Shown here piece by piece: positions 3,698 through 57,640 of a stretch of 64,000 nucleotides of DNA (position 1 is the stretch's first letter; each line of letters starts with the position of its first letter). Location of the stretch: assembly GCF_026278345.1 (NCBI RefSeq), contig NZ_CP111085.1, positions 5,180,282 to 5,244,281 on the forward strand, read 5' to 3'. The position numbers were made by a program, and so were the translations under genes. The notes beneath the pieces are model-generated. The model worked only from the letters and a program-made list of their open reading frames with translations, made no database searches and was not told where the DNA came from. The DNA comes from Tellurirhabdus rosea (lineage in GTDB: Bacteria; Bacteroidota; Bacteroidia; Cytophagales; Spirosomataceae).

Positions 3698-3776
3698 TGA
3701 TTGAATGACTGAATGACTGATTAGCTTCGCTAATTCTAGCCTTGCGAAGCTAATCAGTCATTCAGTCATTCAATCA
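3698..3776. repeat. 3'-end inverted repeat, 33-nt perfect arms, between convergent ung and lepB
   Basis: 3698-3730 is exactly complementary to 3744-3776 with a 13-nt loop. The arms carry GAATGACT words outside and TTAGCTTCGC inside. The right arm contains the lepB stop codon (3770-3772) and its last Asp codon; the left arm begins 12 nt after the ung stop. It would form a hairpin in both mRNAs. Confidence 0.95.
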
Positions 3777-5764: not shown

Positions 5765-5873
5765 GTTTTGTGTTTTGTGTTTTGTGTTTTCCGTTTACGT
5801 AATGAGGCTAAACCAACTCAAGGCAACCAATTGAAAACCGCAAACGGAAAACAGAAAACACAAAACAGAAAAC
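5765..5873. repeat. 3'-end inverted repeat of TTTTGTG words
   Basis: 32-nt arms 5765-5796 and 5842-5873 pair at 30 of 32 positions. The left arm is GTTTTGT words ending in CCGTTT; the right arm has the complementary AAAACAC/AAAACAG series and reaches the DUF5683 stop codon (5873-5875). It lies between DUF5683 and dapB on the minus strand, 15 nt upstream of the dapB start. Confidence 0.9.
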
Positions 5874-15040: not shown

Positions 15041-16168
15041 ATGGATGTACTCATCATCGGCGGCGGACTGGCCGGACTTGTAAGCGCGCTGGAACTGGCC
15101 CGCAAAGGCTTTCGGATTACGTTAATTGAGAAGAAAACGTACCCTTTTCACAAAGTCTGCGGGGAGTACGTATCCAACGAAGTGCGGCCGTACCTGGAGT
15201 CGCTGGGCGTTGACCTGCGGGCGCTGGGCGCGTTGGTCATCGAACGCTTCCGGTTTACCTCGCCCTCGGGCCGTATGCTCGAAACGCGGCTGGACCTGGG
15301 CGGATTCGGTGTCAGTCGCTACACGCTCGACTACGCGCTCTACCAACTGGCCGAAGACGCCGGGGTGCAGTTTGTGCTCGGCAAGCAGGTGGACCGGGTG
15401 GACTTCGACGGCAATCAGTTCACAGCGGAACTTGCCGACGGGCAGCGGCTGGCGGCCCGGCTGGTGATCGGTGCTTTCGGCAAGCGTTCGAGGCTGGACA
15501 AACAACTGGGGCGGGCGTTCATGGAAAAGCCGTCGCCCTACGTGGGCGTCAAGTACCACATCCGACAGGGACCAACGCACCGGGGCTTTCCTACGGATAT
15601 TATTGCCCTGCATAATTTTCAGGACGGCTACTGCGGAATGTCGGCCATTGAGGAGGGCAAATACTGTTTCTGCTACCTCACTACCCGCGAAAATGTCCGG
15701 CAGTACGGCAGCATTCCGGCGATGGAACATGCCCTGATGTACCAAAATCCGCATCTGAAGGCTGTTTTCGAAACGTTCGAGTTTGTTTTTGACAAGCCCG
15801 AAGTCATCAACGAAATCTCTTTTGCGCCCAAACGGGCCGTCGAAGACCATATCCTGATGGCCGGCGACTCCGCCGGGCTGATTACGCCGCTCTGCGGCAA
15901 CGGCATGGCTATGGCCATTCATGGGGCCAAACTCGTCAGCGACGTATCCGCCGAATTTCTGCAAAACCGCATCAGCCGTTCGCAACTGGAAGCCCGGTAC
16001 GAGCAGGAGTGGCAGCGGCAGTTTGCCCGTCGTCTGTGGGTAGGCCGCACCGTGCAGAAGCTTTTCGGTGCCCCCCGCCTCTCCGAACTCGCCATCTCCG
16101 TCTTCGGCTTCAAACCCCTTCTCCACGGAGTCATGCGCCAAACGCACGGGAAGGTGCTGGTGGGGTGA
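15041..16168 (+). CDS. FAD-dependent oxidoreductase, geranylgeranyl-reductase-like
   Basis: 375 residues. The N-terminal dinucleotide motif is DVLIIGGGLAGLVSALELAR with the acidic strand end LIEKK near residue 34. KVCGEYVSNE follows, where the family has a conserved Cys-Gly, and the second FAD motif is MAGDSAGLITPLCGNGM near residue 275. These place it in the p-hydroxybenzoate hydroxylase-like group with geranylgeranyl reductases and related enzymes that hydrogenate or halogenate lipids. A role in polyene pigment or isoprenoid lipid modification is a guess. Convergent with the Lrp gene; the shared 3' region is a large inverted repeat. Confidence 0.82.
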   Translation: MDVLIIGGGLAGLVSALELARKGFRITLIEKKTYPFHKVCGEYVSNEVRPYLESLGVDLRALGALVIERFRFTSPSGRMLETRLDLGGFGVSRYTLDYALYQLAEDAGVQFVLGKQVDRVDFDGNQFTAELADGQRLAARLVIGAFGKRSRLDKQLGRAFMEKPSPYVGVKYHIRQGPTHRGFPTDIIALHNFQDGYCGMSAIEEGKYCFCYLTTRENVRQYGSIPAMEHALMYQNPHLKAVFETFEFVFDKPEVINEISFAPKRAVEDHILMAGDSAGLITPLCGNGMAMAIHGAKLVSDVSAEFLQNRISRSQLEARYEQEWQRQFARRLWVGRTVQKLFGAPRLSELAISVFGFKPLLHGVMRQTHGKVLVG

Positions 16169-16413
16169 AGAAAGGGGAATTTTGAATGATTGAATGACAG
16201 AATGACTGATAGGGCTGTCGGGGCGGTTGAATGATGAATGGTTGAATTTTGAATGTTGAATGTTGGCTCCGCAGGGGTTAAGGAAGTGGAGTAACTCAAC
16301 CGCCTCGGCGGCCCCATCAACCCGCCGGCCCCATCATCTATCAGTCATTCAGTCACTCAGTCATTGAACATTCAAAATTCAATCATTCAAAATTCCCCCT
16401 TTCTCACCCCACC
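16159..16413. repeat. Large compound inverted repeat between two convergent genes
   Basis: The outer arms start inside both genes: GGTGGGGTGA at 16159-16168 (oxidoreductase end) pairs with TCACCCCACC at 16404-16413 (Lrp gene end), each including a stop codon. The stem continues through GAAAGGGG and AATTTTGAATGATTGAAT, then GAATGACTGAT. A nested stem pairs GGGGCGGTTGA (16220 region) with TCAACCGCC. The arms differ in the number of GAATG-type words. Confidence 0.88.
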
Positions 16414-16868
16414 GGCACTACGGTCGTGTTTTTCACTTCTGCCATCACGAAAAAGCTGCTGATGTGGAGGATGCCGGGGATGACCGAAAGGCGGTTCTGG
16501 TAGAACTGGTTATAGCTTTCCATGTCGCGGACGATGATCTTCAGCAGGTAGTCGAAGGAACCCGAAACCCGGTTGCATTCCAAGATCTCGGGTAGGCTGG
16601 CGGCGGCCTGGTCGAAGTCGGCGAAGGTGTCGCGAGTCTGTTTGTCGAGCGTCACCTGACAGTAGACCATGAGCGTATTCCCGAGTTTTTTCTTGTTGAC
16701 GAGCATCACGTAGCGGTCGATAACGCCCTCTCGTTCGAGGCGCTTAATGCGTTCATGGACAGGCGTTTTTGACAGGTTGATCTGCTGGCCGATTTCCTGG
16801 ATGGTCAGCCGGGCATCTTCCTGGAGAAGCTTCAGAATCTTCTGGTCAATCGCATCGAGTTCGGTCAT
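16404..16868 (-). CDS. Lrp/AsnC family transcriptional regulator
   Basis: 154 residues, standard length. The N-terminal winged helix-turn-helix is DAIDQKILKLLQEDARLTIQ to SKTPVHERIKRLEREGVIDR. The C-terminal RAM/ligand domain follows from about residue 65 (VYCQVTLDKQTRDTFADF, CNRVSGSFDYLLKIIVRDME). Such regulators sense amino acids. It is divergent from alanine dehydrogenase, and the 192-bp space holds two perfect palindromes and a repeat overlapping the ald start point, so it very likely controls ald and itself. Confidence 0.94.
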   Translation of the reverse strand: MTELDAIDQKILKLLQEDARLTIQEIGQQINLSKTPVHERIKRLEREGVIDRYVMLVNKKKLGNTLMVYCQVTLDKQTRDTFADFDQAAASLPEILECNRVSGSFDYLLKIIVRDMESYNQFYQNRLSVIPGILHISSFFVMAEVKNTTVVPVG

Positions 16869-18245: not shown

Positions 18246-18277
18246 AAAAGCGCGGCCAGTTTGTGCCGCGCTTTTTT
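18246..18277 (+). terminator. Intrinsic terminator after ald
   Basis: AAAAGCGCGGC pairs with GCCGCGCTTTT around a short loop and is followed by a run of six T. Confidence 0.88.
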
Positions 18278-18323
18278 CAAAAAATAAATGCCATATCTGC
18301 GAGATATGGCATTTATTTTTTGA
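18277..18323. terminator. Bidirectional terminator between ald and hisS
   Basis: A perfect 21-bp stem (TCAAAAAATAAATGCC outer part to ATATC) with the 5-nt loop TGCGA. A/T-rich flanks give T runs on either strand. It lies 10 nt after the minus-strand hisS stop, so it mainly serves hisS and backs up the ald terminator. Confidence 0.85.
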
Positions 18324-18332
18324 AAAAAGAAG

Positions 18333-26622: not shown

Positions 26623-26732
26623 GAATGAGTGAATGAGCGGTCCGCCGCCGCGGTGGATAGCTTCGCTGTCCAACATCAATGCTTGTCAGCGGAGCTATTC
26701 ACCGCGGCGGCGGACCGCTCATTCACTCATTC
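26623..26732. repeat. 3'-end inverted repeat, 46-nt arms, longest in the window
   Basis: 26623-26668 pairs with 26687-26732 at 44 of 46 positions around an 18-nt loop. The outer part is GAATGAGTGAATGA words, then GCGGTCCGCCGCCGCGG, then ATAGCTTCGCTG. The right arm covers the stop codon (26723-26725) and last codons of the TPR/binding protein gene. The left arm begins 13 nt upstream of the hemL start. Confidence 0.95.
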
Positions 26733-41667: not shown

Positions 41668-41670
41668 CCG

Positions 41671-41793
41671 TAACGCGGAGTGATACTCCGAAAAAACCTG
41701 TAACGCGGAGTATCACTCCGCGCAGACCCGTAAGAGCCAAAATTAAAAGCCAAATCCTGCGGTTTTTCGCGGAGTATCACTCCGCGTTACAGG
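41671..41793. repeat. Three-copy inverted repeat between convergent SDR and FGE-like genes
   Basis: TAACGCGGAGTGATACTCCG (41671-41690) pairs perfectly with 41771-41790, and a second copy at 41697-41722 pairs with 41768-41793 at 23 of 26 positions. Each unit is itself nearly palindromic (GCGGAGT/ACTCCGC). The right arm contains the stop codon (41787-41789) and the last Leu codon of the FGE-like gene, and CCTGTAACGCGG is copied to the other arm. Confidence 0.9.
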
Positions 41794-42722
41794 TCCTTCA
41801 CGCACCGAAAGCCAACGTGCATCAGGCTGGTTTCCGGAGAGGTAAACGACCGTCCGGAAACCCGGTAGCCGTGGCACCAGCCCGGTTCACAGAGAAACGA
41901 ACCGCCGCGCTGTACCTTTTCGGTCGGGTTCTGCGGCGGTGTTCCGGCCACCAGGTCCGCGTAGTTCTGTTTCCAGTCGTCGCACCATTCCCAGACGTTG
42001 CCCGACATATCCGTCAGTCCCAGCGGGGTTTTTCCAAACTGCCCGACCGGCGAGGTGTGGTGAAAGCCGTCCGCCACGGCATCGTGCTGCGGAAACCTGC
42101 CGTTCCAGGTGTTGGCCAGAAAGTTGCCGGAGGCATCCTGCAAGTCGTTTCCAAACGGGTATTTGGTGCGGCTGTTGACCCCGTTGCGGGCGGCGTGTTC
42201 CCATTCAAATTCCGAGGGCAGGCGTTTCCCGGCCCAGCGGGCGTAGGCGACGGCGTCGTTCCAGGACACCTGCGTAACGGGGTGGTTGTCCGGCGCGGCG
42301 GGCTCGCCGGGGCCCTGCGGATGGTGCCAGGAGGCTCCCGCTTTCAGGGCCCATTGCCCGGTTTCTTCGTTGAGCGTGCCGCCGTCGCCAAACGTTTCGG
42401 CCTGCGTGCGGTAATGGGTCGTTTCCACAAACTTCCGGAAGTCCGCCACCGTAACGGGGTGTTCGTCCATAAAAAACGGCCTGATCTGCACCCAGAACAG
42501 CGGTTTTTCCCACTCCATACCGGCCTCATCCCCAATCTGGGTCTGCCCGCCCGGAACCAGAACCATCCCCGGCGGCGGAGTCCGGCCGGCTACCGGCAGG
42601 GCCACAGAAGCCGGAGAAGGCTTCTCGGCAAAGAGGGTCACCCCGGAAGAATACGCCCGGCTTTCCGGCTCCGACTGGCAGGCAAAGACCAGGCAACTCG
42701 CCGCGATGAGGATTGTACGCAT
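41787..42722 (-). CDS. Formylglycine-generating-enzyme-like lipoprotein (SUMF1/FGE-sulfatase domain)
   Basis: 311 residues. A short leader ends LVFACQS (Cys15), so a lipoprotein. The FGE domain covers about 50-308: MVLVPGGQTQIGD, MDEHPVTVADFRKFVE, HPVTQVSWNDAVAYARWAGK, RLPSEFEWEHAARNG and LTDMSGNVWEWCDDW. The final motif RGGSFLCEPGWCHGYRVSGR retains two Cys in the positions of the FGE copper-binding pair, so it may be a true sulfatase activator. No sulfatase lies in the window, so it could instead have another ligand role like many family members. Confidence 0.88.
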   Translation of the reverse strand: MRTILIAASCLVFACQSEPESRAYSSGVTLFAEKPSPASVALPVAGRTPPPGMVLVPGGQTQIGDEAGMEWEKPLFWVQIRPFFMDEHPVTVADFRKFVETTHYRTQAETFGDGGTLNEETGQWALKAGASWHHPQGPGEPAAPDNHPVTQVSWNDAVAYARWAGKRLPSEFEWEHAARNGVNSRTKYPFGNDLQDASGNFLANTWNGRFPQHDAVADGFHHTSPVGQFGKTPLGLTDMSGNVWEWCDDWKQNYADLVAGTPPQNPTEKVQRGGSFLCEPGWCHGYRVSGRSFTSPETSLMHVGFRCVKDL

Positions 42723-55349: not shown

Positions 55350-56327
55350 ATGAAAGCAGACACCATTTTGGTTATTGGAGCAAATGGGCAGATTGGTACG
55401 GCCCTGCTGCCCCGGCTTCAAACCCTGTACGGCGAAGGGGCGGTCATCGCGACGGACCTTCGGCTTCCTGCCCGGCAGACCGGTCGCTTCGAAATCCTCG
55501 ACGCCACCGACGCTAAGGGGCTGGCCGAGCTGGTTCGCCGGCACGGAATCACCCAGATTTATCACCTCGCCGCCGTTCTTTCCGCCAAAGGCGAAGCCGA
55601 CCCGCTCTGGGCCTGGAACCTGAACATGCAGACGCTGTTGAACGTGCTGGAAGTAAGCCGCACGGAAGGCGTAAAAAAGGTCTTCATCCCGAGTTCCATC
55701 GCCGCTTTCGGCGAACACGCCCCGCAGACCGACACGCCGCAGAACGCCTACCTCGACCCGGCCACGGTCTACGGAATCAGCAAGGCCGCCGGCGAAAACT
55801 GGGGACAGTATTATGTCAAACGCTACGGTCTGGATGTGCGCTCGCTGCGCTATCCGGGCATCATCAGCTACGAAGCCCTGCCCGGCGGCGGCACCACCGA
55901 CTACGCCGTGGCTATCTTCCACGAAGCGGTGCAGGGCCGGAACTACGAGTGCTTTCTGGCCGAAAATACCCGCCTGCCGATGATGTACATGGACGACGCC
56001 CTGCGCGCCACCCTCGAACTGATGGAGGCGCCGGCCGGGCAGCTGACCGTCCGGACGTCGTACAACCTGGCCGGATTCAGTTTTACGCCTGCCGAACTGA
56101 CGACCGCCATCCGGCACCATTTCCCGGATTTCAGCGTCACCTACAAACCCGACTTCCGGCAGGCCATTGCGGAGTCGTGGCCGCGCTCAATCGATGATTC
56201 GGTTGCCCGGCAGGACTGGGGCTGGAAACCCGCCTACGACCTCAACCGGATGACCTACGAAATGATCGCCAACCTGACGGCGGTGTACGGCCGCACTGAT
56301 AAAGTCGTTGAAACGTTTAAGGTTTAA
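55350..56327 (+). CDS. NAD-dependent L-threonine dehydrogenase, SDR/epimerase type
   Basis: 325 residues. Oxidises L-threonine to 2-amino-3-oxobutyrate. The Rossmann motif is VIGANGQIGTALLPRL at 8-23, the catalytic Tyr-Lys pair is in TVYGISKAAGENWGQYYVKR near residue 140, and FIPSSIAAFGEHAP near 112 holds the Ser. RYPGIISYEALPGGGTTDYA near 168 is a strong mark of the epimerase-type threonine dehydrogenases. Followed by kbl, which completes the route to glycine. The stop codon lies in the left arm of an inverted repeat. Confidence 0.93.
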   Translation: MKADTILVIGANGQIGTALLPRLQTLYGEGAVIATDLRLPARQTGRFEILDATDAKGLAELVRRHGITQIYHLAAVLSAKGEADPLWAWNLNMQTLLNVLEVSRTEGVKKVFIPSSIAAFGEHAPQTDTPQNAYLDPATVYGISKAAGENWGQYYVKRYGLDVRSLRYPGIISYEALPGGGTTDYAVAIFHEAVQGRNYECFLAENTRLPMMYMDDALRATLELMEAPAGQLTVRTSYNLAGFSFTPAELTTAIRHHFPDFSVTYKPDFRQAIAESWPRSIDDSVARQDWGWKPAYDLNRMTYEMIANLTAVYGRTDKVVETFKV

Positions 56328-56408
56328 CGTTTAACGTGGCTCCGCCGCTGCGGTGTCTTCGCCCTGCTACAACCATCTGATGGGGCGGAGCCACGTTAAA
56401 CCTTAAAC
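56315..56408. repeat. 3'-end inverted repeat between tdh and kbl with one extra word in one arm
   Basis: 56384-56408 is perfectly complementary to 56315-56346 apart from one extra 7-nt TTTAACG copy in the left arm. The inner part is GTGGCTCCGCC. The left arm includes the tdh stop codon (56325-56327). It lies within the probable tdh-kbl operon, 23 nt before the kbl start. Confidence 0.92.
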
Positions 56409-56431
56409 TTTAAACCTTATAACCTAGATAT

Positions 56432-57640
56432 ATGTACGCTATAAAAAACCAACTCCAGCAGGAACTGGACGCTATCAGGGACGCCGGGCTGTATAAGGCC
56501 GAGCGCATTATTGTCACTCCCCAGTCCTCCGTGATCGGCATTGTCGACGGCCGGGAGGTGCTGAACTTCTGCGCCAACAATTACCTGGGCCTGTCGTCGC
56601 ATCCCGAGGTGGTGGAAGCCGCCCGCCGGACGCTCGACACCCACGGATTCGGTATGTCGTCGGTCCGCTTTATCTGCGGGACGCAGGACATTCATAAGGA
56701 ACTGGAACGCCGGACGGCGGAGTTCGTCGGGGCGGAAGACTGCATTCTGTACGCCGCGGCGTTCGACGCCAACGGGGGCGTGTTCGAGCCGTTGCTGAAC
56801 GAGCAGGACGCCATCATTTCCGACGAACTCAACCACGCCTCGATTATCGACGGAATCCGGCTCTGCAAAGCCAAACGTTTCCGCTACAAGCATAACGACA
56901 TGGCCGATCTGGAAGCCCAGCTGGAAGCGGCCAAAGGGAGCCGCCGCATCCTGATCGTGACGGACGGCGTGTTCTCGATGGACGGCACCATCGCCCAGCT
57001 CGACAAAATCTGTGACCTCGCCGACCGCTACGAAGCGATGGTGATGGTGGACGAATGTCACGCCAGCGGGTTCATGGGAAAAACAGGCCGCGGGACGCCC
57101 GAACACAAGGGCGTTTTCGGCCGCATCGACATCATCACGGGCACCTACGGCAAGGCGCTGGGCGGAGCCTCCGGCGGCTTCACGGCGGCCCGGAAAGAGA
57201 TTGTGGAACTGCTGCGCCAGCGTTCGCGGCCGTATCTGTTCTCCAATACGCTCGCTCCGGCCATCGTCGGCGCGTCGCTGAAAGTGCTGGACCTGCTGGA
57301 AGGCTCGACGGCCCTGCGCGACAAGCTGGAAGCCAACACCCGTTACTTCCGCGAGGCCATGACCGCCGTCGGCTTCGACATCCTGCCGGGCGAACACCCG
57401 ATTGTGCCGATCATGCTCTACGACGCCCCGCTGGCGCAGGAGTTTGCCGCGCGGCTGCTGCAGGAGGGCATTTACGTTATCGGCTTCTTCTATCCCGTGG
57501 TGCCCCAGGGCAAAGCCCGCATCCGGGTGCAGATTTCGGCCGGTCACGAGCCGGAGCATCTGGAGCGCGCCGTGGCGGCGTTCACCAAAGTGGGCCGCGA
57601 ACTGGGCGTTATCAAGTCCGGCGAAATGGCCGAGGCGTAA
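56432..57640 (+). CDS. kbl: Glycine C-acetyltransferase (2-amino-3-ketobutyrate CoA ligase)
   Basis: 402 residues. PLP enzyme that converts 2-amino-3-oxobutyrate and CoA to glycine and acetyl-CoA. [16 protein letters not shown] near residue 48, [16 protein letters not shown] near 75, the PLP Asp region [20 protein letters not shown] near 205, and the Schiff-base Lys in [14 protein letters not shown] near 243 are visible. [20 protein letters not shown] separates it from other alpha-oxoamine synthases. Paired with tdh. Confidence 0.95.

Follow-up and report, generated by a model that had tools for sequence, protein, structure and literature searches.

Hairpins reaching from stop codon to stop codon at gene ends of Tellurirhabdus rosea, and a gene end apparently copied across one of them

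The hairpin between the oxidoreductase and Lrp genes

The window is the whole stretch of chromosomal DNA that was analysed, 64,000 nt of the T. rosea contig NZ_CP111085.1 (positions 5,180,282 to 5,244,281). About a quarter of the way along it, two convergent genes of unrelated function finish within the arms of a large inverted repeat. The features of this locus are:

15041–16168, + strand: FAD-dependent oxidoreductase gene (PF01494), product ending ...THGKVLVG*; putative recipient of the matching end
16154–16195, + strand: left outer arm, the first 15 nt of which are oxidoreductase codons including the TGA stop (16166–16168)
16177–16373: inner stem of TGAATGA-type units with a GGCTCCGC-containing centre (arms 16177–16212 and 16338–16373), located by repeat search and folding
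16377–16418, − strand: right outer arm, the last 15 nt of which (16404–16418) are Lrp codons including the stop (TCA at 16404–16406 on the + strand)
16404–16868, − strand: Lrp/AsnC-type regulator gene, product ending ...TTVVPVG*; likely donor of the matching end

The outer arms are 42 nt each and 90% complementary. Both enter their genes by 15 nt, with TGA opposite TGA in register, and the complementarity runs on beyond both stops. A 283 nt stretch around the repeat is predicted to fold, at −140.6 kcal/mol (z −10.9), into a single giant hairpin. Over their final 15 coding bases the two genes are identical at 14 positions in opposite orientation, stop against stop, so the observation from which the earlier note started, that the arms at 16159–16413 hold the last codons and stop codons of both genes, is borne out. 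In a 1.66 Mb sample of the chromosome, this is the sole 14/15 case among 214 convergent pairs, and a match of this quality was reached by 22 of 799,480 pairs among all gene ends and by none of 45,582 cross-pairs of convergent gene ends. This last figure argues that the match did not arise by chance, although the outer GTGC of the 15 nt is partly due to conserved codons (KVL in the relative L046). The shared end GTGCCGGTGGGGTGA is not a dispersed word of the genome; its 11-mers have 2 copies in the 1.66 Mb, close to the 0.8 expected by chance.

The two halves of the match differ in age. Lrp orthologues that end VPVG* or VPVE*, or in near-identical DNA, occur in relatives without the opposite arm (GTGCCGGTGGAGTGAGAAATGG in genome G211 and GTACCGGTTGGGTGAAGAA in G203; armless relatives have Lrp ends that match GTNCCNGTNGGGTGA or GTGCCGGTGGAGTGAGAAA), and the Lrp end is therefore ancestral. 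Oxidoreductase orthologues end THGKVLAVE*, THGEVIAV*, THGKIISVT* (in the congener) and similar, and of 90 distinct ends only one is Gly-final, with an unrelated tail. The oxidoreductase end in the window, GTGGGGTGA, matches Lrp orthologues at up to 13 of 15 positions and its own orthologues at no more than 11 of 15; two codons, the stop and the bases following it are all altered relative to the orthologues. These comparisons support a lineage-specific rewrite of the oxidoreductase end toward the older Lrp end, and through the hairpin the Lrp gene end seems to have been copied onto its unrelated neighbour. Comparing the C-terminal codons with relatives, as the earlier note proposed, thus shows an old Lrp end and an oxidoreductase end changed toward it; the objection that the match predates the hairpin applies to the Lrp half and fails for the oxidoreductase half. 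The genomes from which the ancestral oxidoreductase end is reconstructed share only about 70% protein identity, so substitutions accumulated step by step, with selection for pairing, could also have led to the present end. In the congener (G001) the Lrp and oxidoreductase genes lie in tandem, so the closest relative does not provide a before-and-after pair.

The same junction has a varied history in other genomes. Where the two genes are convergent and no hairpin is present, the gaps are 0–11 nt (loci L042–L045 and L058). At four loci (L059, L063, L104 and L118) quite different hairpins occupy the junction, with both stops inside and in register; the sequence is GTGTAGCCCAGACTCG in L059 with a related one in L063, and AGCCCCCTRACCCCCAGAG in L104 and L118. 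The oxidoreductase and Lrp proteins of L104 and L118 both end AP* within the arms, which is suggestive of an inserted unit. In L059 and L063 the Lrp gene has a TAG-ended tail resembling the oxidoreductase end, which is suggestive of copying in the reverse direction. One tentative proposal, which we think rather unlikely, is that hairpins between convergent genes extend their arms outward by template switching, taking the last codons and stop of one gene across to the other, so that unrelated proteins come to share C-termini, and that this has happened repeatedly at this junction and in both directions within the family (from Lrp to oxidoreductase here, from oxidoreductase to Lrp in genomes G212 and G224).

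Hairpins at gene 3′ ends across the chromosome

The sample of 1.66 Mb represents 30% of the 5.58 Mb chromosome. Genes were called with a purpose-built dicodon model, arms were found by an ungapped search, and hairpins scoring at least 20 were classed as strong. The search returned 301 hairpins, of which 189 were strong, a density of 11.4 per 100 kb. In G003 and G178, two species from a different genus of the family, the density of strong hairpins is 4.5–5.0 per 100 kb, and none was found in 27 kb of loci from the congener G001, against 11 per 100 kb here; from this small sample, a recent expansion of hairpins in the present genome is possible.

Per gap, strong hairpins are much commoner between convergent genes (73 in 214 gaps) than in tandem gaps (94 in 835) or divergent gaps (19 in 215). 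Among the 240 gene 3′ ends that face a strong hairpin, 58 have the whole stop codon inside the arm and 21 have at least 10 coding nucleotides inside it. The outer arm edges cluster at the stop codon, with 13.3 edges per nt at −3 to +2 compared to about 0.4 per nt beyond 30 nt, and the density drops within about 15 nt on either side. Arms hardly ever enter the start side of genes.

The arms are commonly built of 7 nt units (TGAATGA, GAGTTAA, GTTTAAG, AATAGCG, GTCGTAA), and 71 of 186 hairpins have a core of the GGCTYCGC/GCGRAGCC type; in 142 of these 186 the left arm is purine-rich. Core and heptad words are common to many hairpins, while the order of units in the arms is unique to each site. 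About half of the overlapped coding 11-mers are clear repeat words, mostly heptads, with 8–98 copies in 1.66 Mb (expectation 0.8), and E, D, N and S are over-represented as the last residue of proteins that end in arms. Since the heptads contain TAA or TGA, the arms often supply the stop; seven being 1 modulo 3, a heptad array brings a stop into each frame within 21 nt, and this alone causes genes to end inside arms. Two further components were seen. A six-copy hairpin family (one copy at 18271–18329 of the window) has a constant tip, CCATATCT-NNN-AGATATGG; its outer arms are specific to each site, mirror each other almost completely and are rich in A/T tracts. A GCGGTCCGCCGC(CGCGGT) module lies between heptad arm and core in some hairpins and has 22 copies in 1.66 Mb, including one at 26623–26732 of the window.

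Position and symmetry suggest that the hairpins are most likely bidirectional transcript-end stem-loops; fold, gap type and arm-edge position all agree with a stable stem at the gene 3′ end, as in a terminator. A simple scan for short loops followed by T-runs gave 8 hits between 14000 and 20000, compared to 8.0 in shuffled sequences, with none at 16154–16418. A strong terminator would not be expected between tdh and kbl, where one of the hairpins lies.

Other gene ends and the extent of copying

The earlier note listed five more places in the window where an arm overlaps a stop codon:

3698–3776: hairpin with TGAATGA heptad arms and a GCTTCGC core; holds the lepB stop (3770), with 7 nt of coding sequence in the arm
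5765–5873: hairpin with GTTTTGT heptad arms; the high-scoring arm takes in only the final base of the DUF5683 stop codon
26623–26732: hairpin GAATGAGTGAATGAGCGGTCCGCC...; holds the stop and last codons (10 nt) of the gene ending at 26723
41670–41794: nested palindromes of a TAACGCGGAGTATCACTCCGCG repeat where the FGE-like gene ends (41787), 4 nt past
56312–56418: hairpin with GTTTAAG heptad arms between tdh and kbl; the last 16 nt of tdh (56325/56327) are arm sequence

The overlap is clear at 3770, 26723 and 56325, marginal at 41787 (4 nt), and at 5873 reduced to the final base of the stop. The site at 41787 also has a longer, nested repeat copy of CCTGTAACGCGG (3 copies in 1.66 Mb). At 3770, 26723 and 56325 the arms overlap codons that are dispersed heptad repeat words with 12–55 copies in 1.66 Mb, and because of this it is mostly the repeat that supplies the gene end, not the gene that supplies the repeat.

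The tdh gene is the clearest of these. Its orthologues, including that of the congener, encode 316–320 aa, and kbl usually starts a few nt after the stop with no hairpin between. In the window the product is 325 aa, its last five residues (ETFKV) come largely from arm sequence, and the last seven codons look replaced. The gap to kbl is 104 nt with a heptad hairpin (56290–56440), compared to a few nt in relatives. Among the compared genomes the hairpin at this junction is found only in the present one (G000), the pattern of a MITE-like insertion into an intact site, although neither a target-site duplication nor transposase-matched ends were noticed there. By comparison with relatives this is a lineage-specific hairpin insertion in which the repeat rewrote the C-terminus of the gene.

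The lepB product ends in Ile-Asp in many relatives, and so the position of the stop is old and the arm merely reaches it. The lepB genes of G003 and G178 are 94.5% identical, yet the hairpins after them are unrelated, and in G003 the TAG stop of lepB sits within a dispersed GTAGAGACGCAA element. Congeneric genomes (L258–L264) have long near-perfect hairpins directly after the lepB stop with little sequence in common. The arm at one lepB locus (L281) was considered as a gene-end copy and rejected, as its extension into the codons is not a true copy. The gene at 26723 ends in AATGAGTGA beside a hairpin in three genera (26623–26732 of the window, and loci L318 and L319). It was set aside as a directional case, since a gene end shared in this way gives no readable direction; the hairpin may be of long standing, or the last codons of the gene may themselves have seeded its heptad type. 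A second copying candidate, a gene ending LQP* near position 4298724 of G000, was also set aside; its tail is variable in relatives and a donor could not be assigned.

In 86 hairpin-bearing convergent pairs, the in-register match between the two genes is raised at −2 and downstream of the stop, and none was detected beyond about 2–4 nt upstream of the stop. A comparison of 200 kb between G003 and G178 (about 90% median gene identity) found eight gene ends with a hairpin in only one of the two species, and in seven of these the stop and last residues were unchanged. The missing coding signal and the unchanged ends indicate that gene-end copying is uncommon. Pairing of stops in register was rejected as proof of copying: 10 pairs occur at shift 0 (score at least 12) versus about 11 over all other shifts, an excess that does not separate copying from insertion because about one third is expected when both genes enter identical arms. 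Paired genes have the same stop codon in 40 cases (33 expected), which is not a decisive difference. The note's idea that palindromes grow outward by template switching and copy gene ends accordingly holds up at 16159, with its older Lrp end and rewritten oxidoreductase end, but as a general rule it fails against the repeat words at 3770, 26723 and 56325, the tdh insertion and the seven unchanged ends.

Origin of the arms and related systems

Heptad order varies from hairpin to hairpin and agrees within each. In 75 heptad hairpins the arm-to-arm identity is 0.92, compared to 0.71 when shifted by one unit and 0.69 for adjacent units, a difference that is partly selection bias, as the register-0 alignment is best-scoring by construction. 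Ten arms of at least 30 nt show at least 97% arm-to-arm identity, with their own units only 58% alike. This likeness is what template switching between arms would give, in keeping with the mechanism in the earlier note, and selection for pairing could contribute.

The reading that probably describes these elements best is that of dispersed, probably terminator-like palindromes at gene 3′ ends, reaching from stop codon to stop codon, whose arms are heptad repeats and which often have a GGCTYCGC/GCGRAGCC core. Within a hairpin, the two arms would be kept alike by template switching (quasi-palindrome correction), with gene-end copying a rare by-product. At the oxidoreductase/Lrp junction, correction would have extended outward beyond the repeat, placing a copy of about 20 nt from the Lrp end (GGTGGGGTGA plus the bases that follow) at the end of the oxidoreductase gene. 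We infer template switching as the copying mechanism there; among the loci studied, only this one combines a unique flank on the other arm with a donor older than the recipient.

Pure insertion of a unit, in which a mobile palindrome inserts at gene ends and the reading frames on both sides run into identical arms without any copying of genes, is possible but rather doubtful as a full account. It would explain the tdh insertion, the shared AP* ends of L104 and L118, the G003 lepB stop in GTAGAGACGCAA with a different hairpin in G178, and the core conserved in 71 of 186 hairpins. It does not explain why heptad orders that differ among hairpins match within each, or why the non-dispersed end GTGCCGGTGGGGTGA is vertically inherited in Lrp. 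Less likely still is outward growth by template switching that generally copies gene ends onto the opposite arm. The 16159 case is of this kind, the six members of the CCATATCT tip family each have a different, nearly fully complementary outer arm, and the four other junction hairpins hold both stops in register; however, complementarity in register is gone beyond about −4 in the 86 convergent pairs, much of the overlapped coding sequence is dispersed repeat, and seven of eight lineage-specific hairpins left the stop and last residues as they were. Equally unlikely is selection alone, whereby pairing at the stem base, stops included, is advantageous and arises through compensatory point mutations, as it does in known terminators. 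Compensatory terminator evolution is documented in Bacillus cereus (PMC5381666), and the peak of arm edges at stops and the purine-rich left arms (142 of 186) are in line with it, but long near-perfect, locus-specific arms that are replaced between close species would be hard to build base by base, and at the oxidoreductase end two codons, the stop and the bases after it have all changed. Chance or protein constraint is a highly improbable cause of the 16159 match, which the cross-pair nulls reject and which goes on past both stops, even if the conserved VPV of Lrp and KV(L/I) of the oxidoreductase give part of it free.

Several known systems share features with these hairpins. Inverted repeats are enriched next to stop codons in E. 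coli (PMC6060812), and bidirectional intrinsic terminators between convergent genes are likewise symmetric hairpins just downstream of stops; the arms described here are up to 65 bp, often heptad arrays, and include the stop codons, and the hairpins often have no clean T-run and also occupy tandem gaps such as tdh–kbl. Template-switch mutations can create hairpins in one event (PMC8794818) and can change neighbouring codons in yeast (PMC8604942). Homogenised inverted-repeat arms are common to those cases and the present one, which differs in concerning bacterial gene ends, in a copied piece that includes the stop of another gene, and in being known from sequence comparison. Bacterial MITEs, small mobile repeats and the palindromic elements of Rickettsia, some of which fuse to reading frames (PMC2229807), are also dispersed palindromes with stops in several frames, whereas the hairpins here have no fixed sequence, no target duplication was noticed with them, and their arms differ at every site. 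Arrays of intergenic 7-mers, the TAACTGA heptamers, are known from Beggiatoaceae, Cyanobacteria and some Bacteroidetes (PMC4679880), but these are direct repeats mostly near start codons, unlike the inverted pairs at gene ends seen here. REP/BIME elements are likewise extragenic palindromes, for which roles in termination and mRNA stability have been proposed (PMC3733652). REPs are 20–40 bp long with tagged ends; in the present hairpins only a short core is constant, and the arms vary. Open-licence PubMed Central papers yielded no account of stop-to-stop heptad hairpins in this group.

If the copying is real, it would mean that a non-coding structure can alter, by mutation, the protein ends and stop codons of two genes together, and such paired rewrites would look like convergent evolution in sequence comparisons. 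With 189 strong hairpins in the sample, each with locus-specific, mutually matching arms, this group is a good natural system for studying how long hairpins originate and are maintained in bacteria.
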